DNA from: Candidatus Nitrosocosmicus sp.
Lineage (GTDB): Archaea; Thermoproteota; Nitrososphaeria; Nitrososphaerales; Nitrososphaeraceae
Direction: 5' to 3'
Length of the DNA stretch: 34,394 bases
Assembly: GCA_025934495.1 (NCBI GenBank)
Contig: JAICXY010000029.1
Coordinates: 1-34,394, forward strand
A program made the translations under genes and the position numbers. This document shows positions 12,444 through 26,048 of the stretch, piece by piece (position 1 is the first letter of the stretch; the number at the start of each line of letters is the position of its first letter). The notes beneath the pieces were generated by a model. It worked only from the letters and a program-made list of their open reading frames with translations, had not been told where the DNA came from and made no database searches.

Positions 12444-13424
12444 TTATTTTGAAATTAAACCATAATAGATAAAAGGTAAAATCGTACTAATATCTGCATG
12501 AATAGTAATTTGTTTTGCTTCAGTAGTAACCTTTCCCCATGAAATAGCTTCTGTAACAAGAGCACCACTCAAACTTCCATCCCACTCAGAAGCAGTGGTA
12601 ACATAAACAGCATAGTCCAAGCCTCCTCTATATTGATTCCACCATAGTGTATGGTGCTTGGAAATTCCACCACCCATCATAAATGCACCTGTCATTTTAG
12701 AATCAAAAATTAATTCAGATAATTGAGTTTGATCTTTTAATATGTCAATTTTAAAATCTTTATGATTTTGATTAAATAACCATATTTGATTTCCAACTGC
12801 GCCATCAACAATCCCCGGAACAAACACAGGAATATCATTCTTAGATGCCCAATATAGAAACGAAGTTTCATTCAATTTACTGCCAATATATTTGATAATT
12901 TCAGATGGAGAAAATTCCTTGGAAGATTTTGTTTTATCATATAAATCCTGTAATATAGATTGGAGTTTATTTTCTATTAATGGACCATAGTTTTTAGTTG
13001 GAACAAGAATATTTCCCAATCTATGGATATTTTCGCTTAATAGAGATTTATCGTCCAGACGGAAATCACCTTCGTAATAAGAAGAAAATGACCTAGCAAT
13101 ATCATGATCCAAAGATCCGCAAGTGGTAATAACACAATCAAACATCTTGTTTTTAATCATATCTCGAACGATACCCCGATTTCCAGTTGAAATTAAAGAT
13201 CCCACAAATGATAAAAACTTTGTACAATTTTTTTCATTAATCATATTTAGGAGAATAGTTATACCATTTGCCAAATTCCGCCCTTCAAATCCACCTGAGT
13301 CAAGCATATTTGTAAGAACATGGTTAAAATCCGAAGAGACATCAATATCATAATCCTTTACAATCTTTGATAAGAAATTTTTTGAATCGATGTCGTTATT
13401 TGATTTTTTTTTATCTTGCTTCAA
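12444..13424 (-). CDS. dys: Deoxyhypusine synthase
   Basis: The 326-residue enzyme should use NAD and spermidine to put a 4-aminobutyl group on a lysine of aIF5A, the first step to hypusine. The catalytic lysine is Lys298 in EAISWGKV. The SKHHTLW segment supplies the histidine equivalent to human His288, and EWDGSLSGA precedes the active site. The Asp that binds spermidine in human DHS within this segment is Leu here, which I believe is common in archaeal forms. The start is TTG 13424, preceded by a 104-base divergent gap to the second DHS-like gene. A hydrophilic stretch of about 25 residues comes before the fold. It converges with aglB, with 102 bases between the two stops. Confidence 0.9.
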   Translation of the reverse strand: MKQDKKKSNNDIDSKNFLSKIVKDYDIDVSSDFNHVLTNMLDSGGFEGRNLANGITILLNMINEKNCTKFLSFVGSLISTGNRGIVRDMIKNKMFDCVITTCGSLDHDIARSFSSYYEGDFRLDDKSLLSENIHRLGNILVPTKNYGPLIENKLQSILQDLYDKTKSSKEFSPSEIIKYIGSKLNETSFLYWASKNDIPVFVPGIVDGAVGNQIWLFNQNHKDFKIDILKDQTQLSELIFDSKMTGAFMMGGGISKHHTLWWNQYRGGLDYAVYVTTASEWDGSLSGALVTEAISWGKVTTEAKQITIHADISTILPFIYYGLISK

Positions 13425-13528: not shown

Positions 13529-14617
13529 TTGAGTAATAACCGACATAGTTTTTCAGGAAATAAAATAAATCCTCCAGAAATATTTGCGGGTATGACGGTA
13601 TCAGAATTGATAGATTTATTTGGCAAAACAGGATATAATGCAAGAAGGCTAGCAGAAGCAGCTGAAATTATGATTAGAATGGTGGAATCAGATGCTACCA
13701 TTTGCTTAACAATTGCAGGAGCAATGACCCCCATAGGTTTTGGAAAAATAATATCACAAATGATAGAAAATGGTTTTATTGACTGGATAGTTACAACAGG
13801 TGCCAATGTATATCATGACCTACATTTTGCGTATGATTTGCCAGTAAGACAAGGGCATTTTGATGTGGATGATGACATTTTATATTCAAAACAAATTGTT
13901 AGAATTTATGATGTATATATTAAAGAAAATGGAACTCTTCAAGCTCAAGACACAATAATGCAGAAAGATATCCAAGAGATTTATCAGAAAAATAAAAATA
14001 TAGAAATGGGATCTACTGCAGATTTATCATATTTCTTTGGAAAAGCTGCTTTAGAAAAATCTAAATATTCAGAAAAATCATTTTTGGTTTCTGCTTTTAA
14101 ATCAGATGTACCTATTTACATTCCAGCCCTTAGTGATTCATCCGTTGGTTTGAATATGCTACCATTAATGTTAAATGAAAAAATATCGATAAATGTCATT
14201 CAAGATATTGCAGAATCTGCTGCAATTTTATGGAAAAGCGATAAATCAGGAGGAATTGAATTGGGTGGAGGGGTTCCAAAAAATTTTTTCCAACAAACAG
14301 GGCCTGCGCTCTATCAAATATTGAAAATAAAAGAAGGCGGTCATGATTTTATTGTTCAGCTAACTGACGCAAGACCTGATACTGGAGGACTATCAGGAGC
14401 AACCTTACAAGAGGGTAAAAGTTGGGGAAAAATCAAAACTTCCCATAAAGGAAATGTTGTAGTTTATGGAGATTCTTCAGTATATTTTCCAATCCTCTGT
14501 ACACATATACTAACTAAATGCAAACCAAGGAATAAAAAACGAATTTACAAAAATAAGAATAAATGGGTTGAAGAAATGAAGCAAAATTTTATTAATCAAG
14601 GAAACAATCAACAATAA
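13529..14617 (+). CDS. Deoxyhypusine-synthase-like protein (second paralogue)
   Basis: This protein of 362 residues has the DHS fold with the active-site lysine Lys301 in EGKSWGKI. It differs from the neighbouring dys: the KHH motif is replaced by GGGVPKNFFQQTGPAL, and the pre-active segment is GGLSGATLQEG. This PKNFFQQT pattern is what I associate with the bacterial-type DHS-like branch, whose members may make homospermidine or act on other amine acceptors. The reaction here is therefore open. Its own Asp-to-Leu change is shared with dys. The conserved family N-terminus (PPEIFAGMTVSELIDLF) begins close to the TTG 13529 start; Met22 is an alternative start. A basic C-terminal tail of about 35 residues is extra. 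It is followed by pyrI after 57 bases. Confidence 0.82.
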   Translation: MSNNRHSFSGNKINPPEIFAGMTVSELIDLFGKTGYNARRLAEAAEIMIRMVESDATICLTIAGAMTPIGFGKIISQMIENGFIDWIVTTGANVYHDLHFAYDLPVRQGHFDVDDDILYSKQIVRIYDVYIKENGTLQAQDTIMQKDIQEIYQKNKNIEMGSTADLSYFFGKAALEKSKYSEKSFLVSAFKSDVPIYIPALSDSSVGLNMLPLMLNEKISINVIQDIAESAAILWKSDKSGGIELGGGVPKNFFQQTGPALYQILKIKEGGHDFIVQLTDARPDTGGLSGATLQEGKSWGKIKTSHKGNVVVYGDSSVYFPILCTHILTKCKPRNKKRIYKNKNKWVEEMKQNFINQGNNQQ

Positions 14618-18305: not shown

Positions 18306-18905
18306 ATGGATACGAAATTTTTATGGGAATATAAAACCCCCGGCATTCCAGATGAGCTTTTTAGTAGAACAGAGAATGTTCCTATAACAAAGGAGGAAGT
18401 AAGATCCATAATAATAAGCAAATTACGCTTAAAAGAAGGATATCCATCTATAGATATTGGTTGTGGCAGTGGTAGCATTTCAATTGAGCTAGCTATTCAA
18501 ACAAAAACCACAGTATTTGCAATAGATGTAGACAAAAATGCAATTGATCTAACAGAGTATAACAAAATAAAATTTGGATTAGATGATAAAATAAAAATTA
18601 TAGAAGGATTGGCACAGAACGTTTTACCAAATCTACCAAATGTAGATGCGGTTGTTATAGGAGGAACTACGGGTGATACAGAGAAAATAATAAAGCTAGC
18701 AATAGATCGGTTAAATAAAGGAGGAAGATTGGTTGTTACATCCATATTAATTGAAACAATTTATAAAACTCTTAGAGCAATTGAAGATTCAGAATTAGTA
18801 GAAATTGATATAACCCAGGTAACTGTTGCAAAATCCAAAAAAACTCGATCAGGAACAATGATGATTTCAAGAAATCCTGTGATTATTTTTTCTGCGACAA
18901 AATAA
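18306..18905 (+). CDS. cbiT: Cobalt-precorrin C15-methyltransferase (decarboxylating) CbiT
   Basis: A class I AdoMet methyltransferase of 199 residues. The N-terminal GIPDELFSR and ITKEEVRSIIISKLRL segments and the AdoMet loop DIGCGSGSISIE (about residues 50-61) match CbiT. CbiT methylates C15 of the corrin ring and removes the acetate carboxyl at C12. The later IGGTTGDTEKII and RLNKGGRLVVT segments also agree. It overlaps no neighbour: 2 bases after the membrane-protein gene and 40 bases before cbiL. Confidence 0.93.
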   Translation: MDTKFLWEYKTPGIPDELFSRTENVPITKEEVRSIIISKLRLKEGYPSIDIGCGSGSISIELAIQTKTTVFAIDVDKNAIDLTEYNKIKFGLDDKIKIIEGLAQNVLPNLPNVDAVVIGGTTGDTEKIIKLAIDRLNKGGRLVVTSILIETIYKTLRAIEDSELVEIDITQVTVAKSKKTRSGTMMISRNPVIIFSATK

Positions 18906-18945
18906 AAATACAAAAACTTTAATTAATATTTTTTAAAGTGGTTTT

Positions 18946-19677
18946 ATGACAAATCCAAAACTGTATTGTATAGGATGTGGTCCTGGTGATCCGGATTTAC
19001 TTACTTTAAAAGCAATAAATATTATTAAAAATGCAGACATTATTTATACTCCAACAGCTAGAGAAGGGAAACCTAGTGTTGCACTATCAATAGTTGAAAA
19101 ATTTCTTAATAAGGATACAGTAATTCATCAATTGATTTTTCCAATGATTAAAGACTTTAATAATTTAAAGGAAAACTGGAAAAATAACACCATAGAAATA
19201 ACAAACTCTATACGAGAAGGAAAAAAAACAGTTTATTTAACTGTAGGCGATCCTTCTTTATATAGCACTTGGATTTATATTTACAAAGAGATAATCAAAG
19301 AGCATAAAGACATAGAAGTTGAAATTGTCCCTGGCATAACATCTATTTTCTCATTTTCTGCTGAAATAAAAACGCCTATAGGAGAAGGAGAGGAAATAAT
19401 AGGAATAATACCTGCATGCTATAACCTAGATAGGTTAAAAATTGCTGCACAATGTTGCGATACACTAGTATTCTTAAAAGATGGTAGACATTTTAATAAT
19501 GTAATAGAAATATTAATGAACTCGGGTTTTCCAGAAGATTCAGATATTTTTATAGCTCAAGATGTATCTACAAATAGTGAAGCGTTACAAAAAAGAAAAT
19601 TATCAGAGATATCAAGAAATCCCAATGAAAACAATGATAAATACTTTTCAATAATGATAGCCAAAAAGAAAAAATGA
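18946..19677 (+). CDS. cbiL: Precorrin-2 C20-methyltransferase CbiL
   Basis: A tetrapyrrole methylase of 243 residues. The N-terminal CIGCGPGDPDLLTLKAI motif and the central LTVGDPSLYSTW and VEIVPGITSIFSFSA segments are diagnostic. The NADIIYTPT stretch and the two-Cys AAQCCDTLVFLK region match the C20 enzyme CbiL/CobI better than other paralogues. It adds a methyl from AdoMet at C20 of (cobalt-)precorrin-2, early in corrin synthesis. Its TGA stop overlaps the ATG of cbiF (ATGA), showing translational coupling. Confidence 0.92.
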   Translation: MTNPKLYCIGCGPGDPDLLTLKAINIIKNADIIYTPTAREGKPSVALSIVEKFLNKDTVIHQLIFPMIKDFNNLKENWKNNTIEITNSIREGKKTVYLTVGDPSLYSTWIYIYKEIIKEHKDIEVEIVPGITSIFSFSAEIKTPIGEGEEIIGIIPACYNLDRLKIAAQCCDTLVFLKDGRHFNNVIEILMNSGFPEDSDIFIAQDVSTNSEALQKRKLSEISRNPNENNDKYFSIMIAKKKK

Positions 19678-20462
19678 TTCAAAAAAATACAGTTTATTTT
19701 GTAGGTTCAGGCCCTGGTGACCCAGAGCTAATAACAATAAAGGCAAAAAAACTATTGGAAATTGCAGATGTTATAATATCTTCAGGATCTTTATTGAATC
19801 CCGAAATACTAGGTTGGGCTAAAGATGAAGCCAGTTTATACGATGCAGCAAAATTAGATAGGGATGAAATATATGAAATTCTCAGAGATTCCACAAAAAA
19901 TGGCAAGTTGGCAATAAGATTTCATGACGGGGATCCTGGAATTTTTAGTACAATAAGAGAACAAATAGATAAATTAGAAAAAGACGAAATCAAATGTGAA
20001 GTAATTCCGGGCATTACATCGTTACTCGGAGCAGCAGCATCAATGAATTTAGAATTAACATTACCAGGTATAACACAAACAATAATAATTACACGCGCAG
20101 AGTTTAGAACACCTGTTCCAGATAGAGAAAAAATTTCGGAATTATCAAAACATGGATCAACCATGGCTTTTTATCTTAGCGTTCATCTACTTGATAGAGT
20201 CATAGAAGAACTATTAAGAGGTGGGGTATACAACGATGAAACCCCTATCGCAATAGTATACAAAGCTACATGGAAAGAGGAAAGAATAGTAAAAGGCACA
20301 ATAGGGACAATATCAAAAAAAGTTAAAGAAGAAAGAATAGTAAAGACTGCACTGATAATAGTAGGAGATGTTATATCGCCAAAAAAATATGAATTTTCAA
20401 AAGTTTATGATTCACAATTTACACATGGTTTTAGAAAAAGTAAAGGAAAAGGAGTGGTCTAA
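19674..20462 (+). CDS. cbiF: Precorrin-4 C11-methyltransferase CbiF
   Basis: A tetrapyrrole methylase of 262 residues. It has FVGSGPGDPELITIKA at the N-terminus, RFHDGDPGIFSTI, PGITSLLGAAASMNLELTLP and IITRAEFRTPVP, which is the CbiF/CobM pattern. It methylates C11 of (cobalt-)precorrin-4. It is the last gene of this small corrin cluster; the remaining ring-contraction and amidation enzymes are not in the window. The stop overlaps by 4 bases the stop of the convergent gene at 20459-20782. Confidence 0.94.
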   Translation: MIQKNTVYFVGSGPGDPELITIKAKKLLEIADVIISSGSLLNPEILGWAKDEASLYDAAKLDRDEIYEILRDSTKNGKLAIRFHDGDPGIFSTIREQIDKLEKDEIKCEVIPGITSLLGAAASMNLELTLPGITQTIIITRAEFRTPVPDREKISELSKHGSTMAFYLSVHLLDRVIEELLRGGVYNDETPIAIVYKATWKEERIVKGTIGTISKKVKEERIVKTALIIVGDVISPKKYEFSKVYDSQFTHGFRKSKGKGVV

Positions 20463-23260: not shown

Positions 23261-24154
23261 CTATAAAATAGAAGATAAAGCATTTGTTATATCCGCACTG
23301 AGATCGACTTTAGAACAAGGGCGAGGAACACTATTAGTAGAAACAAGATCGGTTAATCCAGCAGCCTTCAACCTATTTAAAGAATTTTCATCAGATAATG
23401 CATGCACACACATAGCGTAGATTTTCCTACTTTGATTTTTTTTCAATACATCGAGTGCTTTTAAAATGGTTTCGCCACTAGATATCATATCATCTATAAT
23501 AATTATATCATGGTCTTTGATATCAATTTCCAAATTTTCATCCATCACGACACTTCCACTAATCCGGTCTCTAATTTTATTTAGTGCAAAGAAATTTGAA
23601 TTCATTATTTCAGAAAATTCTTTGGCTCGCGAAATACCACCAGCATCAGGAGAAACAACAATAGGGTCAACCAAATCAAATTGGGTTTTAGCATAATTAG
23701 CAAGAGACCGGATAGAAGAAATATTAAAAATTTTCAAGTTAAAATATGAAAGCGCTTTAATACTATGAATATTAACTGTGATTAAATTACGGACATTAAT
23801 ACATTCTAGCAACCTAGCAATTAATGAAATTGTAACAAATTCCCCATCTAAAAACTTTCTATCTTGTCGAGCATACCCCATATAAGGTAAAACAGTTATA
23901 ACTTCTGAAGCCCCCGCCTCATAGCAACCAGAAACAATCATCAAAGCTTGTAATAGATGAGAATCGACTGGTGGATAGGTAGATTGAACTACTATACATT
24001 TTTTATTTGACAAATTTGAATCAATTCTTATTTTACTCTCGCCATCTGAAAAAATTTTTAGATCGATAGGAACAGACACAGATTTCAAACGAGCGGCAAT
24101 AAAATTTCCCAAATCTAACGAAGAAGGACCAGGTAAAACTACTACATCTTTCAA
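23261..24154 (-). CDS. prs: Ribose-phosphate pyrophosphokinase (PRPP synthase)
   Basis: The protein of 297 residues makes PRPP from ribose 5-phosphate and ATP, feeding purine, pyrimidine and NAD synthesis. Visible marks are PYMGYARQDRKFLDGE (the ATP-loop signature), the VVSPDAGGISRAKEF segment, and the PRPP loop IIDDMISSGETI near 210-221. The length fits the short archaeal type. The start is TTG 24154, since the frame opens with MKDVVVLPGPSS as in relatives. It is immediately upstream of rnz. Confidence 0.95.
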   Translation of the reverse strand: MKDVVVLPGPSSLDLGNFIAARLKSVSVPIDLKIFSDGESKIRIDSNLSNKKCIVVQSTYPPVDSHLLQALMIVSGCYEAGASEVITVLPYMGYARQDRKFLDGEFVTISLIARLLECINVRNLITVNIHSIKALSYFNLKIFNISSIRSLANYAKTQFDLVDPIVVSPDAGGISRAKEFSEIMNSNFFALNKIRDRISGSVVMDENLEIDIKDHDIIIIDDMISSGETILKALDVLKKNQSRKIYAMCVHALSDENSLNRLKAAGLTDLVSTNSVPRPCSKVDLSADITNALSSIL

Positions 24155-24684
24155 GATATTTTTGAAATAATTTTAGAATCTTAAAAACGTTAATCAAACA
24201 ATGTTTTTGTTGAATGTTTATATATCCATATATGCTGTCTACAAGCCAATTATCATGTAATTGTACTAATGCATAATTCAGCATTTGAAATCCATCAATC
24301 AAATAAATAAAACAATTATCAAAGTTAAATGAAAATTATAATATTTAAAAATACAATACAATATTTTATTTTATTCTCTATTTTCTAACGATGATAATAT
24401 AGATCTTGCCTGATTAAACACATTTCATAATTATATAGATATTAATGAAGTTTTGTAATATTTACATAGTATTTGCAAGGTATAATTAAGATGTACAGCT
24501 TTTGGTAATTTTTCTAATTATGCTAATTATGCGAGAGATCTAATCAATAACAATCCCCTTGGATTATATTATACACCAGAATGGATTTGTAACTGACTTA
24601 CAAAACATATAATATCATAAGCCACACATAACCTAATAGCCATTACCCATAAAATAATAATTTAAATTTAAATTTCAATAAATT
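24155..24684. other. Intergenic, AT-rich, no gene seen
   Basis: About 530 bases between the prs start and the racemase-like gene stop. All frames are stop-rich, and the minus-strand frame reaching 24302 overlaps prs and looks like a shadow. The right end has a palindromic ATTTAA-type tract (24659-24675). Confidence 0.5.
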
Positions 24685-25482
24685 TTAAAACTGTAAAGAT
24701 ACATCATATATTATTTCTTTTGTACCCATATACCGAAGTATATTCTGAAAATCCTTTTTGTTTGAGGAGGCAAGTATTTCAAGTTTTCCAGTTCCATTTT
24801 TAATCAAATCATTATTGAACTGCAAATAATTTTTTGTGTCTTTTGCAACCTGTGAAGAAGAATCTATAAATTTTATCGAAGGCAAAAGATCAACCAAATA
24901 ATTTTTGACAAAAGGTAAATGTGTACTTGATAAAACAACAACATCAATAGAATCTTTAAAATTAGATTTTACTATATTTTGAATAGTTTTGAATGTACGA
25001 ACTTTATCAAACAAAAAGGACCCATCTTCGACAAGATCAATAATATCCGATGAATCGATTTTGGTAATAAAGACTTCCTGAGGAACCTCCTTATTTATCA
25101 GATAATTAAATTCTTTGCTATTTAATATTCCACTTGAAGCCATTATAGCGATATGATTTTTTTGACTCAATTTAACCGATCTTTTAAGGGGTGGTTTTGT
25201 AGATATAATATCAATCGAAAAGTCATTTTTTATTTCTTCAAAGATTTGGACCGACGGAGTATTTGATGCCATAACTATGAGTTTAGGCCCATATTTTTCC
25301 AAAAATTTAATAGATTTTATTATTATGGATTTTAATTGGCCTTTAGATTTTCTACCATAAGGAAAATTCAACCTATCAGCAAAATATAATATATTTTCTG
25401 CAGGAATAATTTTTCTTAATTCTCGGACAACGGATAAAGATCCTAAACCAGAATCAAAAACTGCGATTGGCCGATATAACAT
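24685..25482 (-). CDS. Glutamate/aspartate racemase-fold protein lacking both catalytic cysteines
   Basis: This protein of 265 residues follows the MurI family from start to end. It has AVFDSGLGSLSVVRELR with Asp10 and Ser11, then FADRLNFPYGRKS, then a glutamate-binding-like ASNTPS at 72-77. The second half-site is SSTHLPFV at 185-192. In MurI enzymes these two sites read ACNT and GCTH, and the two Cys do the deprotonation and reprotonation. Here both are Ser (Ser73 by TCA and Ser186 by AGT). His188 remains. Normal racemisation is therefore unlikely. Options are a binding or regulatory protein, or a changed reaction. Nitrososphaerota have no peptidoglycan, so a cell-wall role is not expected. 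The gene starts at ATG 25482. Confidence 0.85.
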   Translation of the reverse strand: MLYRPIAVFDSGLGSLSVVRELRKIIPAENILYFADRLNFPYGRKSKGQLKSIIIKSIKFLEKYGPKLIVMASNTPSVQIFEEIKNDFSIDIISTKPPLKRSVKLSQKNHIAIMASSGILNSKEFNYLINKEVPQEVFITKIDSSDIIDLVEDGSFLFDKVRTFKTIQNIVKSNFKDSIDVVVLSSTHLPFVKNYLVDLLPSIKFIDSSSQVAKDTKNYLQFNNDLIKNGTGKLEILASSNKKDFQNILRYMGTKEIIYDVSLQF

Positions 25483-25583: not shown

Positions 25584-26048
25584 CTACATACAACAACTTC
25601 CGGCAGGAATACGATATCCGTGTGGACATATTTTGGGATGTTTTAATAAAGTACATAATGCTTCAGTAAATATTTCCTTCATATGATGTTCAATTCCACA
25701 AACCATTTCCTCATCAATGTCTATTTTTAAAGCATCTTTCATTAATACCTCCAACAATCGAGTATTGCGAATCATTTGTTTACCTATTTTCTCACCATCA
25801 GTGGTAAGAACAACTATTGAACCTTTCTTGTAATCAATTAAATGAGAATCATTCAATTTATGAAGCATTTGGACTACTGAAGGTTGTGTTACATTCAATA
25901 CTTTTGCTATAGAACTTACTTTCAACTCTTGACCGCTTTCCATAATTGACCACATTGCTTTCAAGTACATTTCGATATGCTCAGCCTCTGCTGTACCTAT
26001 ATACAATTGCTCTGGTAATTCTGAGTTTTTTGAATAAACAGTCAACAA
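25584..26048 (-). CDS. DtxR/MntR-family metal-dependent transcription regulator
   Basis: A regulator of 154 residues. It has an N-terminal winged helix with YLKAMWSIMESGQELKVSSI and the recognition region LNVTQPSVVQMLHKLNDSHL. The dimerisation helices with the metal-ligand pattern VCGIEHHMKE follow. The end CPHGYRIPAGSCCM contains the CPHG segment that is typical of the family. Such regulators bind Fe2+ or Mn2+ and repress uptake genes. No SH3-like third domain is present. The start is TTG at 26048 (a second TTG follows). The target genes are not evident. Confidence 0.9.
   Translation of the reverse strand: MLTVYSKNSELPEQLYIGTAEAEHIEMYLKAMWSIMESGQELKVSSIAKVLNVTQPSVVQMLHKLNDSHLIDYKKGSIVVLTTDGEKIGKQMIRNTRLLEVLMKDALKIDIDEEMVCGIEHHMKEIFTEALCTLLKHPKICPHGYRIPAGSCCM

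Follow-up and report, generated by a model that had tools for sequence, protein, structure and literature searches.

A MurI-like protein with serine at both catalytic cysteine positions is conserved in the Nitrososphaerales

Introduction

What does a glutamate racemase homologue do once both of its catalytic cysteines have become serine? The question is raised by a gene in a 34,394-nucleotide stretch of Candidatus Nitrosocosmicus sp. (GCA_025934495.1, contig JAICXY010000029.1, positions 1 to 34,394, forward strand; hereafter the window). In cofactor-independent racemases of this type, a Cys thiolate abstracts the alpha-proton of the amino acid (pKa ~29) and a Cys thiol gives a proton back on the other face (PMC8142540), and for glutamate racemase (EC 5.1.1.3) we took one catalytic Cys per substrate face as the criterion. 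The only paper that we found on the archaeal protein (PMC12363236, 2025) states that glutamate racemase is ubiquitous among these ammonia oxidizers, describes the Nitrosopumilus maritimus protein as having the "necessary catalytic active sites" and infers D-glutamate use.

Results

Sequence profile and predicted fold of the window protein

The initial annotation had placed this open reading frame in the glutamate racemase fold, with the ACNT and GCTH sites of MurI reading ASNT and SSTH and with Asp10, Ser11 and His188 kept. Both the coordinates and the two sites were borne out (residues 72-75 and 185-188; Table 1), and alignments confirmed the three retained residues. The protein scored 150.9 bits against the NCBIfam glutamate racemase profile TIGR00067, a small margin above the curated cut-off of 146.65, and its matches among PDB sequences were glutamate racemases together with weak aspartate racemases. 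An AlphaFold2 model from an alignment of 44 homologues had a pLDDT of 95.5 and a pTM of 0.91, and the best Foldseek matches to it were all MurI structures (TM-score 0.82-0.89), in agreement with the fold first assigned and pointing to the two-domain MurI architecture. By sequence profile and predicted fold, the ORF is thus confirmed as a full-length MurI homologue.

Table 1. Features of the MurI-like gene and its neighbours in the window
Feature	Position	Strand	Remarks	Basis
Ser/Ser MurI-like protein	24685..25482	-	265 aa	ORF, TIGR00067 profile, AF2, Foldseek
DSGLGS, residues 10-15	25438..25455	-	Asp10 and Ser11 kept; Ser15 for the Gly invariant in MurI	
PYG, residues 41-43	25354..25362	-	Substrate-pocket loop; invariant in Ser/Ser set, near-invariant in MurI	
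ASNTP, residues 72-76	25255..25269	-	Ser73 (TCA, 25264-25266) for first catalytic Cys; Pro76 for Ala	
Glu152	25027..25029	-	Acidic active-site residue as in MurI; E in 109/111, D in 2/111	
SSTHL, residues 185-189	24916..24930	-	Ser186 (AGT, 24925-24927) for second catalytic Cys; Leu189 for Tyr/Phe; Thr187 and His188 kept	
DtxR/MntR-type regulator	25584..26048	-	Just upstream, same strand; linkage kept in window's genus	
Ribose-phosphate diphosphokinase (PRPP synthetase)	23261..24154	-	Downstream	
CbiT - CbiL - CobM cobalamin genes	18306..20462	+		

Conservation of the two serines

Searching 400 genomes of the class revealed a MurI-like protein in 229 and, among the matches listed, all were in the same order (families f1, f2, f3 and f5). 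Residues were read in 111 distinct sequences, a subset of what the 229 matched genomes hold. Ser73 aligned unambiguously with the first catalytic Cys (VACNTA) and Ser186 with the second (LGCTHYP), in profile alignments to solved MurI structures, and Ser stood at both sites in 111/111 Nitrososphaerales homologues from four families, with no Cys homologue in the set. The order-wide conservation that the initial annotation had left to be checked therefore holds, and a strain-specific or sequencing change is ruled out. An independent named genome collection, scanned with the pattern VFDSGxGS (which would miss the Fusobacterium type described below), gave 80/80 Ser/Ser loci, including Nitrosotalea devanaterra and several Nitrosocosmicus and Nitrosopumilus. 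The other MurI sequences compared were 21/21 Cys/Cys; bacteria were sampled mainly through plasmid and phage records.

Five positions were invariant in the archaeal Ser/Ser group and different in the 21 Cys/Cys MurI used for comparison: S15 (Gly in MurI), S73 (Cys), P76 (Ala), S186 (Cys) and L189 (Tyr/Phe). All five fall within three active-site motifs, suggesting that the active site was remodelled as one unit and is more than just broken. The initial annotation had proposed a selective loss of both Cys; both are indeed gone with fold and pocket kept, but three further motif positions (G15S, A76P and Y/F189L) have changed as well. The surrounding frame was retained: Asp10, Gly12, Asp36, Tyr42, Glu152, Thr187 and His188 were identical between the archaeal set and the 21 MurI, and among the 111 sequences D10 and H188 were invariant, E152 near-invariant, and S11, Y42, G43 and T75 invariant or nearly so. 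The auxiliary (Asp10, Glu152, His188) and pocket (Ser11, Tyr42, Gly43, Thr75) residues expected for EC 5.1.1.3 are thus present in the archaeal set, unlike what would be expected of a decaying pseudoenzyme. The exception was residue 119, Thr in 20/21 MurI but Thr, Val or Ala in the Ser/Ser group and Met in Fusobacterium, so the Thr119 expected for EC 5.1.1.3 is not a feature of the group. Residue 74, beside Ser73, varied (N, I, M, V or S); this variation, set against invariant S73 and S186 at sequence identities dropping to ~30%, suggests that the two hydroxyls are specifically selected.

Codon usage told a similar story across the 111 sequences. Ser73 was encoded by each of the four TCN codons but by no AGY codon, whereas Ser186 used AGT and AGC and no TCN codon. 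A single codon class per site despite shuffled synonymous sites suggests that each Cys-to-Ser change probably arose once and has been strongly constrained since; repeated independent changes are unsupported, since each site has a single codon class and the proteins form one clade. Values of dN/dS between relatives (0.03-0.19) indicate strong purifying selection.

No separate Cys-type MurI was found elsewhere in the archaea tested. The window-protein query does detect this type, having matched, within the fetched loci, an archaeon of another Thermoproteota lineage (G536) at E 4e-23. That archaeon lacks MurD, and its MurI, of the normal Cys/Cys type, groups with bacterial sequences and apart from the Ser/Ser proteins. 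The viral contigs searched contained no relatives, and the matches read in plasmid and phage records were solely Cys/Cys MurI, with the exception of Fusobacterium vincentii.

A Ser/Ser paralogue in Fusobacterium vincentii

The one Ser/Ser protein found outside archaea is the product of a second MurI-like gene of F. vincentii (NZ_CP084075.1, 733171-733926), which additionally has a Cys/Cys MurI at another locus. At 37% identity, it has all five switched residues, Ser15, Ser73 (TCA), Pro76, Ser186 (AGT) and Leu189, while Ser11 and Thr75 are both Ala. Maximum-likelihood analysis separated the archaeal sequences, together with the F. vincentii protein, from the 21 other MurI on a branch with support of 100/98.9; an AU test of whether the F. 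vincentii protein nests inside the archaeal group gave p 0.30, favouring neither placement. The trait is therefore not purely archaeal: the archaeal setting stressed at first stands insofar as the host lineage has no MurD, but the trait reaches beyond it. The retention of a Cys/Cys MurI beside the Ser/Ser protein suggests that the two are probably not interchangeable there, and a walled bacterium able to keep both types argues that the Ser/Ser type has a different job. We lean towards viewing "Ser/Ser MurI-like" as a distinct subfamily within the glutamate racemase family, probably of bacterial origin, which ammonia-oxidizing archaea have held since early on and which at least one Fusobacterium carries as an additional paralogue.

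The F. vincentii record was submitted as a plasmid but, at 2.1 Mb and with murI and genes for pyrimidine biosynthesis on it, is probably a mislabelled chromosome. A PF02626 carboxyltransferase-domain gene (oxoprolinase subunit C type; L205:15768-16775) lies ~7 kb from the Ser/Ser gene, probably by coincidence.

Gene neighbourhood

In Nitrosopumilaceae, the CbiT-CbiL-CobM cluster and the MurI-like gene adjoin tail to tail, a case of shared synteny and not of an operon, and a CdvB-like (ESCRT-III) gene stands head to head with the MurI-like gene (e.g. L145:6238-6885). The CdvB-like and MurI-like starts are ~100 bp apart in two loci (genomes G073 and G081), and a CdvB-like gene also adjoins in family f3. 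In the window's genus the order is MurI-like gene, HyuA-like gene, PRPP synthetase and RNase Z, the 704-aa HyuA-like oxoprolinase/hydantoinase gene of same-genus relatives lying between the MurI-like and PRPP synthetase genes (L068:5683-7794). No HyuA-like gene was found at the corresponding window positions (24155-24684) or in the rest of the window's assembly; a 32-aa stretch at 24335-24243 (E 0.03) is a possible remnant. HyuB (PF02538) was found in none of 11 genomes tested, making HyuA-like an orphan hydantoinase A subunit in L068 and other Nitrososphaerales. Reading a pathway from an operon was dropped: flanks differ by family, the cobalamin genes converge on the MurI-like gene, and linkage to HyuA is patchy. 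With no neighbour constant across carriers, no pathway was assigned.

Elsewhere in the window, two adjacent divergent ORFs (12444-13424 and 13529-14617), putative deoxyhypusine synthase genes, cluster together as paralogues.

Ammonia oxidation, gene loss and peptidoglycan

Across the 400 genomes, which are related and not phylogenetically independent, AmoA and the MurI-like gene occurred together in 202, AmoA alone in 47, the MurI-like gene alone in 27 and neither in 124. Within the 129 best-ranked genomes, all carriers have AmoA, and eight AmoA genomes lack a MurI-like match. The window's assembly (G000, 95.7% complete) has no archaeal AmoA, probably an assembly gap, as it is present in 14/14 same-genus genomes searched. 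In two single-contig genomes (G073 and G081; L216, L217), the MurI-like copy is broken by stops and frameshifts, whereas the CobM and CdvB-like genes on either side of it are intact; another genome (G189; L090) has a broken copy, and a fourth (G108; L213) has an intact copy plus a frameshifted second one. The gene is therefore dispensable, being absent or a clear pseudogene in some ammonia oxidizers.

MurD (TIGR01087) had no match in 11 archaeal genomes, using a profile that detects 12/14 controls, suggesting that D-Glu would have no peptidoglycan sink in this lineage and making a role in standard peptidoglycan synthesis very unlikely in the 11 genomes tested.

Discussion

The conserved Ser73 and Ser186, purifying selection, retained pocket and missing MurD together support a conserved function distinct from thiol-based racemization. 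With these residues the canonical two-thiol reaction is unlikely, and the protein is probably not the glutamate racemase of its annotation. As for the conserved non-racemase role proposed initially, selection, pocket and MurD absence favour it; its "non-racemase" half is deduced, and low Ser-based activity is possible.

On balance, we slightly favour a repurposed enzyme with changed chemistry acting on an amino-acid-like ligand. Thiolate two-base glutamate racemization would be unlikely at a useful rate with Ser at both sites, while an amino-acid or dicarboxylate-like ligand may still be bound between the two domains. The Ser73 and Ser186 hydroxyls, with Asp10, Glu152 and His188, could position this ligand or relay protons, in a reaction that presumably does not racemize the alpha-carbon of an unactivated amino acid. 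Thr119 is not kept and F. vincentii lacks Ser11 and Thr75, so the ligand may not be glutamate. Counting for this reading are the fixed Ser pair and codon classes, the five co-switched positions, the dN/dS values, the F. vincentii paralogue, the predicted MurI structure and the absence of both MurD and Cys-type MurI in the archaea tested; counting against it are a profile score still above the "equivalog" glutamate racemase cut-off, the lack of a conserved operon partner, and the absence or pseudogenization of the gene in some ammonia oxidizers.

The main rival is a binding-only role, in which a pseudoenzyme binds glutamate or a related dicarboxylate and serves as a sensor or regulator without catalysis, and the Ser hydroxyls only hydrogen-bond the ligand. 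Loss of both thiols with the pocket frame retained, dispensability in some lineages and the want of a metabolic operon would all fit, but D10, H188 and E152, catalytic in MurI, vary hardly or not at all, and the former base positions are always Ser, never Ala, Gly or Thr. We regard this role as possible though rather unlikely; it is the persistence of D10, H188, E152 and both hydroxyls that inclines us to an enzyme.

Less probable still is a slow or one-way Ser-based racemase or epimerase, perhaps with a non-glutamate substrate, that enables archaeal D-amino acid uptake, a reading near that of PMC12363236. The family profile exceeds the glutamate racemase cut-off, the pocket frame is retained, and one-way aspartate/glutamate racemases with a Cys-to-Thr change are known (PMC8142540). 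Here, however, two bases are changed and not one; the alpha-proton has a pKa of ~29 and racemases of the family use a thiolate base (PMC8142540; PMC12039745); Cys-to-Ser substitution greatly lowers HisR activity (PMC11602996); and F. vincentii retains a separate Cys/Cys MurI. In related enzymes, natural single Cys-to-Thr changes lead to a one-way reaction or convert an epimerase to a dehydratase (PMC8142540). Taken together, Ser at both sites, the loss in HisR and these natural Cys-to-Thr effects favour an enzyme of changed chemistry over both a pseudoenzyme and a weak Ser-based racemase.

Ammonia oxidizers produce hydroxylamine, and it would be a long shot that the Ser/Ser subfamily is a novel class of MurI-fold enzyme tied to ammonia oxidation, disposing for instance of hydroxylamine adducts like N-hydroxyglutamate. 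Ordinary MurI does catalyse the loss of water from N-hydroxyglutamate in a side reaction (PMC8142540), but the Fusobacterium copy fits such a role poorly and the elimination still requires an alpha-proton base.

The neighbourhood suggests two further roles, both remote. A step in cobalamin biosynthesis is very improbable: the CbiT-CbiL-CobM genes adjoin in nearly all Nitrosopumilaceae loci read and are near in some other families, and CbiJ was not found in Thaumarchaeota (PMC4303638), but convergent, tail-to-tail genes form no operon, CbiJ is missing from other cobalamin-making archaea too (PMC4303638), two complete genomes keep CobM intact with the MurI-like gene only as a pseudogene, and the pocket is of the amino-acid enzyme type. 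Least credible is partnership with the HyuA-like protein in handling 5-oxoproline, hydantoin or a related cyclic amide with a more acidic alpha-hydrogen, since, even with HyuA-like directly downstream in the window's genus and some other Nitrososphaeraceae and hydantoin racemases in the same Asp/Glu racemase superfamily (PF01177), HyuA is missing from the window's genome and many carriers (G015, G040, G059, G067 and others), one genome (G083) has HyuA without the MurI-like gene, and HyuB occurred in 0/11 genomes tested.

As a double Cys-to-Ser experiment of nature maintained by purifying selection, the protein can show what use a two-thiol racemase fold has once racemization is given up.

Comparison with known systems

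The closest known proteins are MurI/RacE (TIGR00067; Bacillus anthracis 2GZM, B. subtilis 1ZUW), similar in length and predicted two-domain fold with TM-scores up to 0.89. Common to both are Asp10, Ser11, Tyr42, Gly43, Thr75, Glu152, Thr187 and His188, whereas in the Ser/Ser protein both Cys have become Ser, Gly15 Ser, Ala76 Pro and Tyr/Phe189 Leu, and Thr119 is not kept. EcL-DER and MMP0739, of the same superfamily, also have a hydroxyl residue (Thr) in place of a catalytic Cys (PMC8142540), but only one of two Cys is changed, as opposed to both in the Ser/Ser protein, which belongs to the MurI branch. HisR, a cofactor-independent histidine racemase whose Cys-to-Ser mutants lose most activity (PMC11602996), has a different fold and the same two-Cys chemistry. 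The F. vincentii protein resembles the archaeal ones in Ser15, Ser73, Pro76, Ser186, Leu189 and clade, and differs in having Ala at 11 and 75 and a normal MurI alongside.

Finally, the "GLUR" of ammonia-oxidizing archaea (N. maritimus A9A551; PMC12363236) belongs to the same orthologous group by distribution, being found in ammonia oxidizers and not in other Nitrososphaeria. That paper describes it as a glutamate racemase equipped with the catalytic sites it needs, whereas the homologues examined here, among which N. maritimus was not identified by name, all lack both thiols. The published distribution thus agrees with our search, but the active-site statement disagrees with every homologue read, and the D-glutamate-use claim rests on an active site without both catalytic thiols. 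The Ser/Ser gene is carried by most ammonia-oxidizing archaea, which rank with the most abundant organisms of soils and seas; metagenomic counts of glutamate racemase that include such genes would err likewise.
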